From Lysobacteraceae bacterium SCN 69-320 (GTDB lineage Bacteria; Pseudomonadota; Gammaproteobacteria; Xanthomonadales; Rhodanobacteraceae), in contig MEFP01000012.1 of the NCBI GenBank assembly GCA_001725155.1, positions 310,001 to 374,000 of the forward strand: a stretch of DNA of 64,000 bases. The letters run 5' to 3'. This document shows positions 41,497-62,616 of the stretch, one piece after another. Numbering within the stretch: position 1 is the first letter of the stretch; the number at the start of each line of letters is the position of its first letter. The notes below the pieces were generated by a model. The model saw only the letters and a program-made list of their open reading frames with translations. It was not told where the DNA came from and did no database searches. The translations under genes and the position numbers were made by a program.

Positions 41497-41868
41497 CTAG
41501 GGTCTGCGCAGGGCCTTGGCCACCCGCAAGAGCCGGATCAGCTCCCGAGCATGGCCGGGCGAGCCGTCCCAACTGCGGTGCAAGGCGCGCTCCAACACCG
41601 TGCCCCAGGCGGCGCTCCGTGGTGGATCCGTCAGGTGATCCGCGATGTCGACGCCCGCCGCACGGCACAGGCGGTGGACGGCCGTCGAGGCGCGGGTGAA
41701 TCGGCCGGCAAGAATGCGGCTGAGCTGTCCCTGGGAGACCTGCGCGGTGCGCAGCAGTTGCGTCTGCGTGAGTCCCTGTATCCGGCGCCAGCGGTCGATC
41801 GCCCGCCCCAGGTTCTGAGCCTGGCTCGGTGAAACGGTCGCGTCGAGGTGTGCGGATTTGATGCGCAT
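41497..41868 (-). CDS. XRE-family HTH transcriptional regulator
   Basis: NLGRAIDRWRRIQGLTQTQLLRTAQVSQGQLSRILAGRFTRASTAVHRLCRAAGVD: HTH_XRE. Confidence 0.85.
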   Translation of the reverse strand: MRIKSAHLDATVSPSQAQNLGRAIDRWRRIQGLTQTQLLRTAQVSQGQLSRILAGRFTRASTAVHRLCRAAGVDIADHLTDPPRSAAWGTVLERALHRSWDGSPGHARELIRLLRVAKALRRP

Positions 41869-41890
41869 AAAGTGCTATAAGTATGCGCAT
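41861..41890. promoter_or_regulatory. Paired palindromic operator in the divergent XRE / DUF5131 promoter
   Basis: Two ATGCGCAT palindromes (41861-41868 and 41883-41890), 22 bp start to start, part of the inverted repeat ATGCGCATA-N12-TATGCGCAT. Confidence 0.6.
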
Positions 41891-41969
41891 AGTTTTCGAC
41901 CGGACGCCACCCGGATCTCAGCCTCTGAGACGGGACCGGCGTAATGAGGCGTATCCTGGAGCGGCCGTC

Positions 41970-42710
41970 ATGACGACCACCTCGAAAATCGAATGGACCG
42001 AGCAGACCTGGAACCCGATCGTGGGGTGCACCAAGATCTCTGCGGGCTGCAAGCACTGCTATGCCGAGACCATGGCAAAGCGCTTGCAGGCCATGGGCAC
42101 GCCAGGCTACGAGAATGGATTCGCGCTGCGTCTGTTACCGGAGCGCCTGGCCGACCCGGGCAAACGCCAGAAGCCCACGGTGTACTTTGTGAACTCGATG
42201 TCCGATCTCTTCCACGAGAAGGTGCCGGAGGTCTACATCGATCAGGTGTTTGCCGTCATCGCGGCCACGCCGCAACACAGCTACCAAATCCTCACGAAGC
42301 GGGCGGCGCGCCTGGCCCGGTACTTTCGCAACCGCACGGTCCCGCCCAACGTGTGGCTAGGGGTTTCGGTAGAGAACCGCCGCCATGGCGTGCCGCGCAT
42401 TGACTACCTGCGCACCGTGGCCGCGCGCATTCGATTTCTCTCCGTCGAGCCGCTGCTCGAGGATGTCGGCGAATTGGACTTGCGCGACGTTCACTGGGTC
42501 ATCGTCGGCGGGGAGTCCGGCCCAAAAGCCCGACCGATGAAACCCGAGTGGGCTGACGCGGTCCGTCGCCAATGTGCTGAACAAGAGGTCGCCTTCTTCT
42601 TCAAACAGTGGGGCGGGTGGGGCGCTGACGGCAAACGCCGCGCCAAATCCAAAAATGGACGATTGCTCAACGGCCGCACCTGGGATGAAATGCCTGCTCA
42701 CGCCTTCTAG
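41970..42710 (+). CDS. DUF5131 / phage Gp37-Gp68 family (three-Cys-motif) protein
   Basis: KIEWTEQTWNPIVGCTKISAGCKHCYAETMAKRL (Cx6CxxC), VYFVNSMSDLFHEKVP, HSYQILTKRAARL, NVWLGVSVEN, FLSVEPLLEDVG, WVIVGGESGPKARPM, FFFKQWGGW. Confidence 0.94.
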   Translation: MTTTSKIEWTEQTWNPIVGCTKISAGCKHCYAETMAKRLQAMGTPGYENGFALRLLPERLADPGKRQKPTVYFVNSMSDLFHEKVPEVYIDQVFAVIAATPQHSYQILTKRAARLARYFRNRTVPPNVWLGVSVENRRHGVPRIDYLRTVAARIRFLSVEPLLEDVGELDLRDVHWVIVGGESGPKARPMKPEWADAVRRQCAEQEVAFFFKQWGGWGADGKRRAKSKNGRLLNGRTWDEMPAHAF

Positions 42711-42722
42711 GGGGAGCGGACG

Positions 42723-43997
42723 ATGGCCCGAAAGCCGTACCAATGGCCTGCCGACGGCAAACCGGCGGTCATTCAGCAGCACAGTGTCGCTAAACACGAT
42801 GTCCTGCGCGCCTACCTCGTCGACTACATCCAGACCCTCGTGGTCTCACCGCAGCAGGAAGAATTGCGGCTGACACTGGTCGATGGATTCGCCGGCGGCG
42901 GCATTTACGTCCACGACGTCACCCGACAGACGGTCTACGGCTCGCCGTTCGCCTTCCTGCAGTCAGCGACCGCGGCCGCCGAGCTTCTCAACCGCGGCCG
43001 ACAAAGGCCGCTGCAGATGAACATCGACTACTTCTTCGTGGAGCTCGATGGCAATGCCTACGCCTCGCTGAAGCGTACGCTGATCGAGCAGGGCTACGGG
43101 GCCCGCATTGGCCAGGACATCCACCTGTTCAACAGCGCCTTCGAGGATCAGTCGGCATCCATTCTTCAGTTCATCAGTAAGAAGAGCCCGCGCGCCGGTC
43201 GCTCGATCTTCCTGCTGGATCAGTACGGCTACGCGGAAGTCCCGACCGCGCAGATCCGTGGCATTTTTGAGGCGCTGCCGGCGGCCGAGGTGTTGCTGAC
43301 CTTCAACGTCGACTCGTTTCTCACCTACGCCAACGACTCGGCGGCAACGAAGAAAACGCTCGCCGACATCGGCATTCCCGACGTCCTGCGCGATCGAACG
43401 ATCGAGGATATCAAGCGCAACGAGAAAGACTGGCGCCTGTATATCCAGAGCTGTCTGTACCGGGAACTCGTCGAGGCCTGCGGCGCCCGGTACTACACGT
43501 TGTTCTTCATCCGAACGGAAGGGCATGGAGATTACTGGTTGGTCCACCTGTCCCAACACCCCCGTGCCCGCGATGTCATGGCCCGCGTGCATTGGAGCAA
43601 GAACAACCATTTCATTCACTACGGCGGTGCCGGCATCGATATGTTTCGGGTGCTGGGCTACAGCGCGGATCGGGACCGCGCCTTCACGGGGCAGGGCGCG
43701 TTCGGGTTCCTGTTTGATGACATCGCCGGCGAATCCAGCGTCAAGTCGCTGATGACGCAATTGCCGCAGCTCATCTACGCGCACGATGAAGGGTTGTCGT
43801 TCGGTGAACTGTTCGCGACGACGTGCAACTTGTCGCCGGCGGACAGTGCTCGGTACAAAGAAGCACTGGAACAGCTTGTTCAACACAAGGAAATCGTCAT
43901 CGTCGCGCCCGATGGCGCTCGCCGCCTCAAAGCCTCGACGATCACGGACAAGGACCAGCTGCTCCCCGCTGCACAAAAGACCTTCTTAGGCTTTTGA
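42723..43997 (+). CDS. tcmP: Three-Cys-motif partner protein TcmP
   Basis: HSVAKHDVLRAYLVDYIQTL, LTLVDGFAGGGIY, YFFVELDGNAYASLKRTL, IFLLDQYGYAEVP; 12 nt after the DUF5131 stop. Confidence 0.9.
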   Translation: MARKPYQWPADGKPAVIQQHSVAKHDVLRAYLVDYIQTLVVSPQQEELRLTLVDGFAGGGIYVHDVTRQTVYGSPFAFLQSATAAAELLNRGRQRPLQMNIDYFFVELDGNAYASLKRTLIEQGYGARIGQDIHLFNSAFEDQSASILQFISKKSPRAGRSIFLLDQYGYAEVPTAQIRGIFEALPAAEVLLTFNVDSFLTYANDSAATKKTLADIGIPDVLRDRTIEDIKRNEKDWRLYIQSCLYRELVEACGARYYTLFFIRTEGHGDYWLVHLSQHPRARDVMARVHWSKNNHFIHYGGAGIDMFRVLGYSADRDRAFTGQGAFGFLFDDIAGESSVKSLMTQLPQLIYAHDEGLSFGELFATTCNLSPADSARYKEALEQLVQHKEIVIVAPDGARRLKASTITDKDQLLPAAQKTFLGF

Positions 43998-44106: not shown

Positions 44107-45912
44107 TCATCGGGCATCGGCCGGGAAAGATGACCGGATCCGTGCCTTATCGTTGCTTCCCAACGCCGCTAGTAGCCCGTCATAGCGGAACGCCTCGCGA
44201 TCGAAATACTCGTGAGGGCCGCTCAAGGTGGGAACGGACCGCAGCGATCCCAGCAAGCCATGCAACGTGGTCTTGAGGTAATATTCCAGATTGGAACAAA
44301 GCAACAGATGATTGGCTCCTCGGCCCGCGCTGTGCACGATGTCGCAACGGGTACGCCAGATGCGTTGAAGATGCCAGCGCACGCGTTTATCGTGCTTCTT
44401 CAGGCGATCCAGCAGCGCCGCAGGACTGCCGAGGTCTGTCAACAACTCATGCACCTGGACCTGCAGGAAGGGTTCCGCGGCCAGGCCGTTGACCACAGCA
44501 GCTCGCTGCAGAGGATCTTCGATCGCTTCCCAGAGTGTCGCCATCGAGCATCTACGCACGTCGATGGGCACGGCCTGGCTGTCGTTGAGCCCCACGCCAT
44601 GATCGAGCAGCACGGTGCGCAACGCGAGCAAGAGCTTCGGTACGTAGCTCAAGCCGATCACCGGACTGACACTGTTTTCGATCGACTTGCCGATGCTTCC
44701 ACTGGCCTGGCTGCCTCGCACGAGATACTCAAGCGCCGTCCACCAGTGCACCAGCTTCGTTTCGATCGTGTCCTGATCGCGGCCTTGGCGGTAGAGCCGA
44801 AACGCGGAGGTGATGCGGTCACGTCCTTCGTCGGTGAAGTGCGCACCCGCCAACAACTCGTTGACGCTGGCCACGAACTGGGCCGCGTCGACCCCGTTGA
44901 GCGAGGTCGCCGGGTTGGGAACCACGCGCGGCAACGGATAAACGTGTCCGCCCGTCGGGCGGGCAACGTCCAGCACGGCGAAGTGATCGGGAATGTGCAG
45001 GCGCGCCTGCTCGTATTCGAAGCGAAGGAGGTTGACGATATTGGCCACGCGTTCGTAGGCATACAGCCCAGCGGCACGGCGATCAGCCGCCGAGATACCG
45101 CGCACTGTCGCGAAACGGCGCTTGGGCTGGGCCGTCAAATAGCTCGTTTTCGCATGGCCGGCCTGGAGGTTGAAGGGTGGCGTATCCGCAATCTCCAAGT
45201 TGCCCAGCGCGGCGGGCAGTTCTTCTGGCCGCGTGATGAGGTCCAGTGCGAAGGTCACGTCGTACTGGTGCGAGGGACCCGTCAAAATTTGGCGGGTCAA
45301 CCCGAGCTTGCGATCGAAGTGGTAGGCCCCCGGCACGTGCCGGGGGACCAGGATTTCCGCGTAGATCCGAAACAACGATTCCAGGGAGAAATCGCGATCC
45401 AGGAGCGTGCTCAGGAGCGCTGCGGTGACCGCGTGAATATGAGGGTAGTCCGGCGCTGGGACCGGCGCTGGCGGTTCGGCGGGCGGCAGCAGCAGACGAT
45501 CCAGGGCATCAAAGGCGCGTAAGACGTAGTGGGTTTGCAGCAGCGGCGCCAGCTCCTGCAGCGTGTAGCGCAGCATGCGCTCCTCGGTCGACCCTTTCGT
45601 CAGCGCCTTGATCTTGTCCTTGAACAGGCCCAGCAGGCGCGGCCGGAGCCCCGCGAACTCGTCGGCGAGAAGAATCGGATCAGCCGTAAGCAGACCTTCG
45701 GCCTCATCCAGGATGACGGTTTTGTCCTCTGGCTTGGCTTCGCTGAACACCAGCGCCTGCTGGATCTCCCGCACCATGGTCCCGGGGTTCATCACGCGAA
45801 CGCGGAACGCGTCAAGCGAATGGGCGTGGACGAGGTTGTACCAACATCCCAGGAAGTAGCGCTGCGCGGGTGTCGGGCCGACCAAAGCCGTCAGATGCCT
45901 GTCAGTCCGCAT
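44107..45912 (-). CDS. Large protein with C-terminal Apea-like HEPN signature
   Basis: LVHWWTALEYLVRG followed by WRTRCDIVHSAGRG (R-x4-H HEPN motif); about 380 N-terminal residues unrecognised. Confidence 0.7.
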   Translation of the reverse strand: MRTDRHLTALVGPTPAQRYFLGCWYNLVHAHSLDAFRVRVMNPGTMVREIQQALVFSEAKPEDKTVILDEAEGLLTADPILLADEFAGLRPRLLGLFKDKIKALTKGSTEERMLRYTLQELAPLLQTHYVLRAFDALDRLLLPPAEPPAPVPAPDYPHIHAVTAALLSTLLDRDFSLESLFRIYAEILVPRHVPGAYHFDRKLGLTRQILTGPSHQYDVTFALDLITRPEELPAALGNLEIADTPPFNLQAGHAKTSYLTAQPKRRFATVRGISAADRRAAGLYAYERVANIVNLLRFEYEQARLHIPDHFAVLDVARPTGGHVYPLPRVVPNPATSLNGVDAAQFVASVNELLAGAHFTDEGRDRITSAFRLYRQGRDQDTIETKLVHWWTALEYLVRGSQASGSIGKSIENSVSPVIGLSYVPKLLLALRTVLLDHGVGLNDSQAVPIDVRRCSMATLWEAIEDPLQRAAVVNGLAAEPFLQVQVHELLTDLGSPAALLDRLKKHDKRVRWHLQRIWRTRCDIVHSAGRGANHLLLCSNLEYYLKTTLHGLLGSLRSVPTLSGPHEYFDREAFRYDGLLAALGSNDKARIRSSFPADAR

Positions 45913-46048
45913 GGGTTCAGTCTGGGGGTAGTGGGCGAGACCGGGGGAGAGGTATACTGGCTCCCTGGCCCCAGCGCCACCGACAAACTAAAGGGGAAAG
46001 GAGCGTAGGTCTGGGTTCGCCCGCTACGAATTCCGCCCCGCCTCTTCA

Positions 46049-46070
46049 GAAGCCCGCGTTTGCGGGCTTC
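46049..46070. terminator. Strong hairpin, probable transcription terminator
   Basis: GAAGCCCGC-gttt-GCGGGCTTC followed by ttcattt. Confidence 0.6.
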
Positions 46071-46150
46071 TTCATTTCAGGTTGCGGCCGCAGCGACGTC
46101 TGCCGATGGCCCCCCGCGGCAGCGTGCTGTTCCTGTGTGCCGGCCAGTAC

Positions 46151-46712: not shown

Positions 46713-47906
46713 ATGCTTGTTGTTGCGGTGCGCTACGGCGCCTATCCCCTCGTCATGGGCGCGATGGCGACGGTAGCCACGGTCGTGTTTCTAGGCGTCC
46801 TGCCGGCGTGGCCGACGCTGCTGATCGCCGCGGCCGCCAGCATCGGCGCGGTGGCGCTGCTCGAGCGCCTGCAGCCGTTCGAGCGTGCTTGGCAGCGTGA
46901 TCATGGCGACACGCGTGCGGACGTGCTGCACGGTGTGGTCAACTTCGGGCTGCTGGCCGGCACGGCCTACGGGCTGCACGCGCTACGCACGGCCGTACCA
47001 GCGGCCATTGCGTGGCCCGCGACTTGGCCCGTGTGGGTGCAGTGCCTGTTCGCCGGCGCGATCCTGGACCTTGGCCTGTACACGATGCACCGCGTGAGCC
47101 ACCGATTCGCGTGGGCCTGGCGACTGCACGCGATTCACCACAGCGCCGAGCGGTTGTACTGGCTCAACGGCGAACGCCGGCATCCGCTGAGCGCGCTGCT
47201 GATGGCCGGCCCCGGCCTGCTCGTGGTCGTGGCGCTGGGCGCTCCTGCGCTAATCGTGAGCGTGTGGCTCGCGATATTGAGCGTGCATCTGGCGTTCCAG
47301 CACGCCAACCTCGACTACTCGGTGGGGACGCTGCGGCGTTGGCTGGGGACGGCTGAGCTGCACCGCTGGCACCACAAGCGCGAGTACGAGAACGCGCAGG
47401 TCAATTTCGGCGAATTCTGGCTGGTCTGGGACCGCGTTTTCGGCACGTTTCTCGATCGTCCCGGCGACGTCGGTGCCGGCGATGTGGGGCTGCGGGAGGA
47501 CACCGTTCCGGCGGCTTATGGCGCACAGCTTCGCTGGCCGTTCCAACCGGCGCTACGAACGATCGGTCCGCGCGACGCCGCGTTCCACGCGGCGTTGACG
47601 CAGGGCTACGCGGCACTCGATGCCAGAGACGCCGCGGCTGCCTACGCCGCGTTTGAGCGTGCCCATGTGTTGGGACAACCTCGCACGCGAACGCACGTGC
47701 GTAGCCATGTGGCGTTCCTGCGCTGGGCAATCCGCCGACGCGATACCCGAGAAATCGCCGGGCAGTTATTCCGCATTGTCGCAGCCGCGCTGTTCACCTG
47801 GCTCTGGATGCCGCGCGGCAACACCGGCGGCGCCCGCGTCAGCGCGTTTGCGCGCATGCCGATATCGGCCGAGATCACGAACATCACCGAAGGGAATCCC
47901 CGATGA
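46713..47906 (+). CDS. Sterol desaturase / fatty acid hydroxylase family protein
   Basis: Histidine boxes HRVSH, HAIHHS, HRWHHKRE. Confidence 0.9.
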   Translation: MLVVAVRYGAYPLVMGAMATVATVVFLGVLPAWPTLLIAAAASIGAVALLERLQPFERAWQRDHGDTRADVLHGVVNFGLLAGTAYGLHALRTAVPAAIAWPATWPVWVQCLFAGAILDLGLYTMHRVSHRFAWAWRLHAIHHSAERLYWLNGERRHPLSALLMAGPGLLVVVALGAPALIVSVWLAILSVHLAFQHANLDYSVGTLRRWLGTAELHRWHHKREYENAQVNFGEFWLVWDRVFGTFLDRPGDVGAGDVGLREDTVPAAYGAQLRWPFQPALRTIGPRDAAFHAALTQGYAALDARDAAAAYAAFERAHVLGQPRTRTHVRSHVAFLRWAIRRRDTREIAGQLFRIVAAALFTWLWMPRGNTGGARVSAFARMPISAEITNITEGNPR

Positions 47907-48526
47907 GCGACTGCGGCTGCCATGCCGAGGCGAACACGGCCGCCGAGCGGCGCGTGTTATGGATCGCACTGGCCCTGAATGCGGCAATGGCCGTCATCGG
48001 GTCACTGGCTGGTTGGCTGGCCCAGTCGACGGGCCTGCTGGCCGATGCCCTGGATATGCTGTCGGACGCCACGGCCTATGCGATTGGCTTGGCGGCGATC
48101 GGCCGCAGCGCGCGATTCAAGCAACGGGCCGCGGGCGTGAGCGGCAGCCTGTTGCTGCTGCTGGGTGTCGGCGTACTGATTGAGGTCGGCCGCCGGGCCT
48201 GGGTAGGCAGCGAACCGGTCGGCTGGCCCATTGTTGCCACGGCGTTGGTGTCGCTGGCCGCCAATCTCGCCGTGCTGCGCCTACTGCGGCCGTTCCGCAG
48301 AGGCGAAGTGCATTTGCGCGCGACCTGGATTTTTACTCGGGCCGACGTTGTGGCCAACATCGGCGTCATCGTTTCCGGTGTACTGATTCTGGCAACGGGG
48401 TGGCGCTATCCGGACCTCGTCGTCGGCGCACTGATCGGCCTGTACGTCAGCAAGGAGGCGCTGGAAATCCTGTCTGAGGCGCGCAATGCCGGGCGGTTGC
48501 CCGCCGCGCCTGAGGAGCGCGCATGA
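47903..48526 (+). CDS. Cation diffusion facilitator-type transporter (short)
   Basis: ERRVLWIALALNAAMAVIGSLAGWLAQSTGLLADALDMLSDATAYAIGL, ADVVANIGVIVSGVLI, PDLVVGALIGLYV. Confidence 0.85.
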   Translation: MSDCGCHAEANTAAERRVLWIALALNAAMAVIGSLAGWLAQSTGLLADALDMLSDATAYAIGLAAIGRSARFKQRAAGVSGSLLLLLGVGVLIEVGRRAWVGSEPVGWPIVATALVSLAANLAVLRLLRPFRRGEVHLRATWIFTRADVVANIGVIVSGVLILATGWRYPDLVVGALIGLYVSKEALEILSEARNAGRLPAAPEERA

Positions 48527-50511
48527 GCGCCAGGCATACGAGGCTCTGGGAAACGGTCGGGCAACGCCTGCGGCGCTCCATCGCGATTGCTATGGTGCTC
48601 GCCGGGGGGGTTCTTGCCGCAGTGCCGACACACGCAGCGCCGTCGGCGGCGCTCGACAGTGACGTGCGGCAAATCTGGCAGTTGCTCGACTACGTCGGCG
48701 TCGACTACGGCGGTGCGGTCGCGAACCACGCGGTCGTGAGCGCGACCGAATACCAGGAAATGCAGGACTTCGTGGCCACGGCGCGGACTCGACTGGCGGC
48801 GCTACCGGCCGGGCCGGACCGTGACACGCAGCTCGCGCAGGCCGACCAGTTGGTGGCCGCGGTGGCCGCCAAAGCTGACGCGGCCGAGGTCGCACGCCGG
48901 GCGCAGGGGCTGGCCGATACACTGCTCGCGGCCTACGGCATTGCCGTCGCCCCGCGCGGACTTCCGGACCTTACACGTGCCGAGACGCTGTTCGCGACCC
49001 AGTGCGCCAGTTGCCACGGCGTGACAGGGCTGGCGGACGGGCCTGCCGCGGCGGCGTTAATGCCGCCGCCGATTGCCTTTGTCGACGCCGCGCGGGCGCG
49101 CGAGCGCAGCGTCTTTGCGCTGTATCAGGTGATCAGCCAGGGCGTGGCCGGTACCGCCATGCCGGCGTTCACGGCGCTCTCGGACGCTGATCGCTGGGCG
49201 CTGGCGTTTCGTGTGGGGTTGTTCGCCTATTCGCCGGCGTTGCAACGCGAGGGCGAGCAACGGTGGCAATCGACACCGGCGTTGCGGTCGCACTTTCCCA
49301 GTCTTGACGCCGTCACCCGGGCCACGGAAGCGGAACTCGCTGTGAGTGTGGGCGAACCCACCGCCCGTGCGGTGGTCGCTTTCGTGCGCGCTCACCCGGA
49401 GGCCGTGGCCGCCGGTAGCACGTCAGCGGCGAGCCTGGTCTTGGCCCGCCAGCGGCTCGTGGAGAGCCAAGCGGCCTATGCCGGCGGCGACCCTGAGCGC
49501 GCCACCGCATTGGCCCTATCGGCGTACCTGGACGGCTTCGAGCCGATCGAGCCGGCGTTGGCATTGCGCGATCGCGGCTTGCTAGATCGCGTCGAGCACG
49601 CGATGGGCGAGTACCGCGCGCGCATCGCGCGCGGCGACACGGTGCCGGCGATTGCCGAGCAAGCCCAGGTGCTGCAATCGCTGATCGATGACGCCGATTC
49701 GGCGCTGAACGCGGCGAACGCCGATGCGACGGCCGCATTCCTCGGCAGCCTGACCATCCTGCTGCGCGAAGGGCTCGAAGCCCTCCTGATCGTGATTGCC
49801 ATGATCGCGTTTCTGCGCAAGGCCGAACGCGTCGACGTGCTGCGCTACGTGCATGCGGGCTGGATCGGTGCGCTGGTCGCCGGCGGGCTCACGTGGGGCG
49901 TGGCGACCTACGCCGTCGGCATCAGCGGCGCGGGTCGCGAAGTCACCGAGGGCGTATCGTCGTTGTTTGCCGCCACTGTGCTGTTGGGCGTGGGCATCTG
50001 GATGCACCAGAAGAGCCTGGCCGGTCGTTGGCAGCAATACGTGCGCGAGAAACTATCCGCCGCGCTGACGCGGCGCTCGGCGTGGTTTTTGTTCGCGCTT
50101 GCGTTTATTTCCGTGTACCGCGAGGTGTTCGAGACGATCCTGTTCTACATCGCGCTGTGGAACGAGAACAACGGCATGGCCCTGCTGGCAGGTCTGCTGA
50201 CGGGTGTCGTGTTGCTGGGCGTGATCGCCCTCGTACTCCTGCGCTACAGCAAGCGGCTGCCGATCGCCCAGTTCTTCACCGGGAGTTCGCTGCTGATTGC
50301 GGTGCTCGCCATTGTGCTCGCGGGCAAGGGGGTTGCCGCGCTGCAGGAGGCCGGTTGGATCGGCGTGCGTCCGATCGACGGGCCGCGCGTCGCGCTCCTG
50401 GGCGTGTATCCGTCGCTGCAGCCGCTGCTCGCGCAGCTTCTCGTGCTGATCGCGGCGGTCGCGGGGTTTGTCTTGAACCGGCGTAGCGGTGTGAAGAAGT
50501 CCCCTGGGTAA
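48523..50511 (+). CDS. Cytochrome c - FTR1 permease fusion (PbrT-like lead/iron uptake family)
   Basis: CXXCH in LFATQCASCHGVTGLADG; FTR1 motifs LREGLEALLIV and YREVFETILFY (REGxE / REVFE). Confidence 0.9.
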   Translation: MSARHTRLWETVGQRLRRSIAIAMVLAGGVLAAVPTHAAPSAALDSDVRQIWQLLDYVGVDYGGAVANHAVVSATEYQEMQDFVATARTRLAALPAGPDRDTQLAQADQLVAAVAAKADAAEVARRAQGLADTLLAAYGIAVAPRGLPDLTRAETLFATQCASCHGVTGLADGPAAAALMPPPIAFVDAARARERSVFALYQVISQGVAGTAMPAFTALSDADRWALAFRVGLFAYSPALQREGEQRWQSTPALRSHFPSLDAVTRATEAELAVSVGEPTARAVVAFVRAHPEAVAAGSTSAASLVLARQRLVESQAAYAGGDPERATALALSAYLDGFEPIEPALALRDRGLLDRVEHAMGEYRARIARGDTVPAIAEQAQVLQSLIDDADSALNAANADATAAFLGSLTILLREGLEALLIVIAMIAFLRKAERVDVLRYVHAGWIGALVAGGLTWGVATYAVGISGAGREVTEGVSSLFAATVLLGVGIWMHQKSLAGRWQQYVREKLSAALTRRSAWFLFALAFISVYREVFETILFYIALWNENNGMALLAGLLTGVVLLGVIALVLLRYSKRLPIAQFFTGSSLLIAVLAIVLAGKGVAALQEAGWIGVRPIDGPRVALLGVYPSLQPLLAQLLVLIAAVAGFVLNRRSGVKKSPG

Positions 50512-61578: not shown

Positions 61579-62616
61579 GTGGCCCGAGGCGGGGTGTACA
61601 AGAGCGAAGTCGAGAAGGCGCGCCAGGCGCTGCTGGCCCAGGGCAAGCACCCGTCCGTGGACGCCGTGCGCGTGGCCCTGGGCAATACCGGGTCCAAGAC
61701 CACGATCCACCGCTACCTCAAGGAGCTCGAGGCCGAGGACGCCAGCGGGGTCGGGGGCAAGTTTCCGATCAGCGACGCCCTGGCCGACCTGGTCAGCCGC
61801 CTGGCCGGCCAGCTCAGCGCCGAGGCCGACCAGCGGATCGCCGAGGCGCAGGCCCGCTGCGAGACCCAGTTACGCGAGCGTGCGGCCGAACTGGCGCAGG
61901 TCCGCGAAGAAGCCCGCGCGCTGGCCGCCCATCTGCAGCGGACCGACGAGGCCTTGCAGGCCGAACGGACGGCCCTCCAGCTCGCGCAGACCGCGCGAGG
62001 GGAGGCCAACACCACGATCCGGGAACTCCACGAGCGCATCGCCGGCCTGACCGCGCGCCTGGCCGAGCACGAGGCGCACACGCAGTCGCTGGAGCAGAAG
62101 CACGCGCACGCCCGCGAGGCGCTGGAGCACTACCGGACGTCGGTGAAAGAGCAGCGCGATCAGGAGCAGCGCCGGCACGACCACCAGATCCAGCAGCTGC
62201 AGGTGGAACTGCGCGAAGCACGCGACGGCCTCATGGCGAAAAACCAGGAACTTGTGCAGCTCAACTGGGACAATGTGCGCCTGACCGAACTGGCCGGCCA
62301 GCACGACCGCGAGGCACGTGACGCGCGCGCCCAACTACGCCGGCTCGACGAGGAGGCCCAGGCGCTCCGGCCCGTCGCCCGCGAGCACGACGCCCTGCAG
62401 ATCCGGTATGCCCACGAACACCTCGCCGGCGAGGGGCTGCGGGCGGACCTGGCGGCGATGCGCGAGGCGCTGGCCACGGAACAAGCCGCGCGCCAGGTCG
62501 CCGAGACCACCGCGGCGCAAGCCACGGCACGCCTCCAGGCCTTCGACGAAGTGCTCGCTCGGCGCGCAGCCGTCTCACCCAGCGAGACACCGTCACCCGC
62601 CCCCACGGGCACCTGA
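61579..62616 (+). CDS. KfrA-like plasmid/ICE DNA-binding coiled-coil protein
   Basis: MARGGVYKSEVEKARQALLAQGKHPSVDAVRVALGNTGSKTTIHRYLKELE (KfrA_N), then about 280 residues of coiled coil. Confidence 0.88.
   Translation: MARGGVYKSEVEKARQALLAQGKHPSVDAVRVALGNTGSKTTIHRYLKELEAEDASGVGGKFPISDALADLVSRLAGQLSAEADQRIAEAQARCETQLRERAAELAQVREEARALAAHLQRTDEALQAERTALQLAQTARGEANTTIRELHERIAGLTARLAEHEAHTQSLEQKHAHAREALEHYRTSVKEQRDQEQRRHDHQIQQLQVELREARDGLMAKNQELVQLNWDNVRLTELAGQHDREARDARAQLRRLDEEAQALRPVAREHDALQIRYAHEHLAGEGLRADLAAMREALATEQAARQVAETTAAQATARLQAFDEVLARRAAVSPSETPSPAPTGT

Follow-up and report, generated by a model that had tools for sequence, protein, structure and literature searches.

A candidate structured RNA gene divergent from an Ec4-type apeA in a Rhodanobacteraceae genome

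ApeA is a known bacterial anti-phage family whose members cut RNA and halt infected cells, and it is usually described as a single-gene system. The ApeA family and the ApeA-NTD1 region were included in a 2013 survey of HEPN proteins (PMC3710099), and deoxydinucleotides are named as ApeA activators in the title of a 2026 preprint (10.64898/2026.01.26.701840). Structures are available for Ec1ApeA (9hxn), Ec2ApeA (9hxb-9hxi), Ec3ApeA (9hxj) and Ec4ApeA (9hxm), the last of which is still labelled a 'putative' antiviral protein. A different HEPN toxin, AbiF of C. difficile, is neutralised by RCd22, an RNA of ~100 nt, through direct binding (PMC12373285).

An apeA-like gene was located at positions 44107..45912 on the minus strand of the window, that is, of the whole 64,000-nucleotide stretch of Lysobacteraceae bacterium SCN 69-320 (contig MEFP01000012.1) that was analysed. 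These coordinates and a length of 601 aa had been given by the first-pass annotation and agreed with the ORF list; the plus-strand frame over the same interval was interrupted by stops. When all PDB chains were searched with phmmer, the best match was Ec4ApeA (9hxm), residues 1-567 of which aligned with residues 1-581 of the window protein at E=1.8e-36 and 24% identity, and the Ec1, Ec2 and Ec3 ApeA chains matched mainly in the HEPN region. Orthologues 83-86% identical to the window protein were found in two relatives, and the product of an E. coli IncHI2A plasmid gene (L012) matched Ec4ApeA almost perfectly from end to end. Judged by this homology, the window protein belongs to the ApeA family, and specifically to its Ec4 branch.

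The general profiles were less informative. No match to the window protein was obtained with Pfam (Abi_2 included) or NCBIfam profiles, and Pfam HEPN_Apea matched none of the 13 family members tested, so that the Ec4-type branch falls outside this Pfam model. The PADLOC ApeA profile matched residues 365-559 only, the HEPN part, at E=1e-4 (44236..44820, minus strand), a region also covered by the Ec1, Ec2, Ec3 and Ec4 ApeA chains. Together with the strong matches to solved ApeA proteins, this bore out the Apea-like HEPN end that had been proposed from the sequence. An AlphaFold2 prediction from 3 sequences reached a pLDDT of 36.3, the alignment being too shallow, and the HEPN fold assignment was therefore based on homology to the solved ApeA structures. 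Among viral contigs, a single distant relative of the HEPN region was found, and three other queries gave no match.

Two motifs were recognised in the HEPN region: I383-ETKLVHWWTALEYLVRG and, 135 residues further on, I518-WRTRCDIVHSAGRG, which contains the catalytic-type motif R522-CDIV-H527 (44332..44349, minus strand). The pair had been described with F in the first position and a spacing of about 145 residues; both motifs and the R-x4-H arrangement were present as expected, and these two details were not. In 13 homologues from Rhodanobacteraceae, Burkholderiales, Enterobacterales and Pelobacter, the invariant residues were R522, H527, R517, N541, E543, Y545, W391 and E395, as well as N-terminal W24, S32, D34 and R37. 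When the set was extended to 16 homologues, down to 16% identity, R522, H527, R517, Y545, W391, E395 and D34 were still invariant. The first-pass annotation had named lack of R/H conservation among homologues as a refuting result, and R522 and H527 were conserved in both sets. Moreover, R522 aligned with R502 of Ec2ApeA, the residue replaced in the R502A mutant of PDB entries 9hxe-9hxh. Given the full-length E value and the invariance of R522 and H527, the HEPN motifs exceed what would be expected by chance.

The N-terminal ApeA region was assigned to residues 1-364 (44821..45912, minus strand) from the 9hxm match and the homologue alignments. About 380 N-terminal residues had been described as unrecognised, which held for Pfam, NCBIfam and PADLOC-DB, none of which gave a match, but not for Ec4ApeA, with whose N-terminal region they aligned. 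Because of this homology to a solved ApeA and of the conserved residues, the protein was regarded as an Ec4-branch ApeA with no new domain at its N-terminus.

The protein alone is thus an ordinary ApeA, and what is new is a candidate RNA gene paired with the Ec4 branch. A candidate non-coding RNA gene of ~120 nt was found back to back with apeA at 45953..46073 on the plus strand, beyond the coordinates covered by the first-pass annotation and absent from it. It was recognised as a conservation block whose body contained no start codon. Across three genomes of the genus, 92 of 100 positions were invariant over 45951-46050, and conservation fell to background directly past the terminator, while at the other end it ran on past the apeA start. 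A -10-like hexamer, TATACT (45953..45958), is kept in the two relatives (L021 and L022); no clear -35 box was seen in the window's own clade, and sigma-70 and terminator scans of the window gave nothing above threshold. A structured core (45983..46042) was delimited by covariation and by the covariance model R2, and in its fold an outer stem GGGG/CCCC (45993-45996 with 46036-46039) encloses an inner stem with covariation. The core is followed by a predicted intrinsic terminator hairpin, AGAAGCCCGC-GTTT-GCGGGCTTCT (46048..46071), with compensatory changes relative to L021 and L022; all these elements lie on the plus strand.

The conservation of the RNA was compared with that of four-fold degenerate sites. 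Identity was higher in the RNA in all pairs compared: 0.88 vs 0.57 between the window and L021, 0.97 vs 0.58 between L021 and L022, 0.74 vs 0.29 between L004 and L006, and 0.76 vs 0.30 between L009 and L037. The core shared by the window and Burkholderiales was made up of nested stems. In an alignment of 8 sequences, every cell of the inner stems was paired (100%), and at three pairs both partners had changed. In 500 shuffles neither this pairing percentage nor the covariation score was reached, and pairing in slid registers did not exceed 64%. The body of the Enterobacterales RNA was 98.8% paired, with weaker covariation. It was concluded that a strongly conserved structured RNA element exists next to apeA.

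Rfam scans returned no family for this RNA, the abiF motif RF03085 included, and a known Rfam family was rejected because the only hit was at chance level, with 18 bits where the gathering score is 70. A tRNA, tmRNA or integration-site relic was likewise dismissed, as the window contains no tRNA at all. To our knowledge, the RNA gene is apparently undescribed in the literature, a statement that does not extend to the 2026 ApeA preprint.

Copies adjoining apeA were found by both covariance models, R1 and R2, the latter built from the window/Burkholderiales core and used with a cut-off of E<0.001. At this cut-off, R2 hit only apeA-adjacent copies in 369 kb of sequence; the 5.7-Mb genome to which the window belongs yielded a single copy, and 292 further genomes of the class yielded none. 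When 234 genomes of the family were searched at the DNA level, credible matches came only from the three apeA-bearing relatives. Four further candidate loci were discarded, three (L033, L034, L035) because, on reading, the match proved to be a coincidence with coding sequence or with an isolated terminator, and one (L032) because the terminator segment alone matched; a weak R2 match (L023, E=0.005) was set aside since it did not adjoin the ApeA-like gene of that genome. One relative (L025, genome G002) retained only a C-terminal apeA remnant, with ~46 residues matched, and the fetched stretch around it contained no RNA match. Among plasmids, the RNA was present in 48 + 71 + 5 records vs 122 records with an ApeA match, these counts coming from separate lists.

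A divergent RNA was observed upstream of Ec4-type apeA in Rhodanobacteraceae, in Burkholderiales, on Enterobacterales plasmids and in one Pelobacter case, and all intact Ec4-type apeA genes whose upstream region was read carried it. In Burkholderiales, Enterobacterales and Pelobacter the RNA of each clade has its own terminator. Sigma-70-like promoters pointing away from apeA were found in Burkholderiales (TTGACC-17-TATAGT) and in most Enterobacterales (TTGCGT-16-TATAAT). The Enterobacterales and Pelobacter RNAs had no detectable homology to the Burkholderiales/Rhodanobacteraceae RNA, the layout alone being common. A single RNA model for all clades was therefore abandoned: the Enterobacterales model missed the window-type RNA and vice versa, so the clade RNAs are called related or analogous, not of one origin. 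The Pelobacter element (L007, 3804-3901) is a divergent hairpin RNA with a terminator beside a plasmid apeA, and it too resembles none of the others detectably. Three Ec2-like apeA loci (L016, L018, L026) had no RNA upstream, and hence the ApeA family as a whole needs no RNA.

We proposed that the window locus is a two-part anti-phage module, in which an Ec4-branch ApeA HEPN RNase is accompanied by a divergent cognate RNA that keeps the nuclease off, and the probability of this reading was put at roughly 0.5. The ApeA part, with its N-terminal ApeA region and its C-terminal HEPN region carrying R522-x4-H527, would cut RNA and stop infected cells. The small structured RNA would be transcribed divergently from the shared intergenic region and, by analogy with AbiF and RCd22, may keep the nuclease off in healthy cells either by binding the protein or by limiting its expression. 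Infection would then free the nuclease through a small-molecule trigger, for which deoxydinucleotides are suggested by the title of the 2026 preprint, and/or through loss of a short-lived RNA. By the same analogy, the RNA would most likely be a cognate regulator of ApeA. For the window locus we infer transcription of the RNA, an RNA-protein interaction, the direction of the RNA effect, the RNase activity and the anti-phage function. A broader version, in which Ec4-type ApeA is generally a protein-RNA module with a divergent structured RNA controlling a large multi-chain HEPN ribonuclease and with at least two clade-specific RNA families that kept their place and terminator, is put forward tentatively, at somewhat less than an even chance.

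A stand-alone ApeA was weighed against this two-part module. In that case the conserved upstream element would be no more than a promoter/operator and terminator region of divergent orientation, or else a hitch-hiking small RNA unrelated to ApeA. Such a view agrees with the Ec2-like loci that lack the RNA, with the general knowledge of ApeA as a single-gene system and with the presence of protein chains only in the 9hxm entry of Ec4ApeA. However, the conserved segment of ~100 nt is well past promoter length and its stems covary, and a divergent RNA occupies the same place in four clades with different neighbours; we consider this explanation unlikely.

In six disruption events apeA was broken and the RNA was intact. 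The gene was interrupted by IS5 (L036, with the RNA detected by the R2 search) or by IS481 (L042), truncated (L041), reduced to a fragment (L043), cut by ISKpn26 with 36 residues left (L047, L048) or left with a shortened frame (L049). The reverse case, a broken RNA beside an intact apeA, was not seen among the loci examined. The search that yielded the loci relied on similarity close to the apeA 5' end, which may account for part of this pattern of retained RNA. The asymmetry would fit a toxin with a harmless antidote, short of proof.

The same association of RNA and apeA would also be expected if the RNA were a positive cofactor, a guard or a decoy, that is, if ApeA needed the RNA or fired when phage factors destroyed or modified it, and ncRNAs are essential in other defence systems such as DRT2/DRT9 and retrons. 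Nevertheless, an intact RNA beside a broken apeA is no less expected of a harmless antidote, and a cofactor, guard or decoy role was judged rather improbable. It is very doubtful that the RNA is an antisense regulator pairing with apeA mRNA, as its adjacent and divergent position might suggest, because it does not overlap the gene and, in 9 loci, was no more complementary than shuffled controls to the leader and start region of apeA.

On the other side of apeA from the RNA, profile matches identified an XRE regulator (41497-41868), a DUF5131 gene (41883-42710) and a TcmP gene with a GMT-wHTH domain (42723-43997), and this cassette matched two PADLOC models for phage-defence candidates, PDC-M30A and PDC-M30B. 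The cassette also adjoins apeA in two relatives, inverted relative to the window and with an SseB-domain gene, missing from the window, placed between it and apeA. The apeA homologues of Burkholderiales and Enterobacterales have other neighbours and no XRE-DUF5131-TcmP, which makes apeA independent of TcmP, and TcmP-DUF5131 was rejected as part of the ApeA system since it is not kept outside the genus. A single multi-gene defence system of ApeA and the cassette, for which its retention beside apeA in the two relatives would speak, is thus highly improbable in view of these homologues and of the inverted orientation. In IncHI2 and related plasmids, the anti-phage gene ppl often adjoins apeA homologues; Ec4-type apeA with its RNA was located beside ppl in L012 and L044 (IncHI2A) and in L010 (IncFIB). 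Elsewhere in the window, the gene at 46713-47906 joins a DUF3703 domain to a fatty-acid-hydroxylase domain of the sterol desaturase-like kind, and a MerR-type regulator and a CDF metal transporter are encoded beside it. An FTR1 iron-permease domain with an N-terminally fused cytochrome c domain (48523-50511) was also noted, as was a protein with a KfrA_N domain (61579-62616), of a sort characteristic of plasmids and mobile elements.

If a cognate RNA goes with the whole Ec4 branch, ApeA would no longer be purely a one-gene system, and constructs that lack the RNA may be toxic, silent or misread. ApeA would then join AbiF and Cas13 relatives as HEPN nucleases tied to RNA control. Clinical plasmids of the IncHI2 and IncF types carry the RNA beside apeA, so that tests in standard laboratory strains of E. 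coli are feasible.

Compared with the described systems, the window protein is closest to Ec4ApeA, with which it shares full-length homology, the R-x4-H HEPN motif and the residues conserved in the N-terminus. A divergent RNA also lies upstream of apeA in the E. coli copy L012, different in sequence from that of the window; the window differs further in its Rhodanobacteraceae host, in its protein identity of 24% and in not lying on an IncHI2 plasmid. With Ec1, Ec2 and Ec3 ApeA the HEPN region is homologous and the catalytic-type R is aligned, but N-terminal similarity is weak or absent by sequence, and the Ec2-like loci examined have no divergent RNA, unlike the window. Type III toxin-antitoxin systems (ToxIN and relatives) also combine a protein ribonuclease with a cognate RNA, as proposed here, although their protein is another one, and their RNA lies upstream in the same direction with a separating terminator, whereas the window RNA is divergent and has no tandem repeats. 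AbiF/Abi_2 with RCd22 (PMC12373285; RF03085) resembles the window locus in its HEPN-type toxin, its adjacent structured RNA of ~100-130 nt and its intrinsic terminator; it belongs to another HEPN family, however, and its RNA carries abiF motifs and lies upstream of the toxin gene in the same direction, whereas the window RNA is divergent and falls into no Rfam family.
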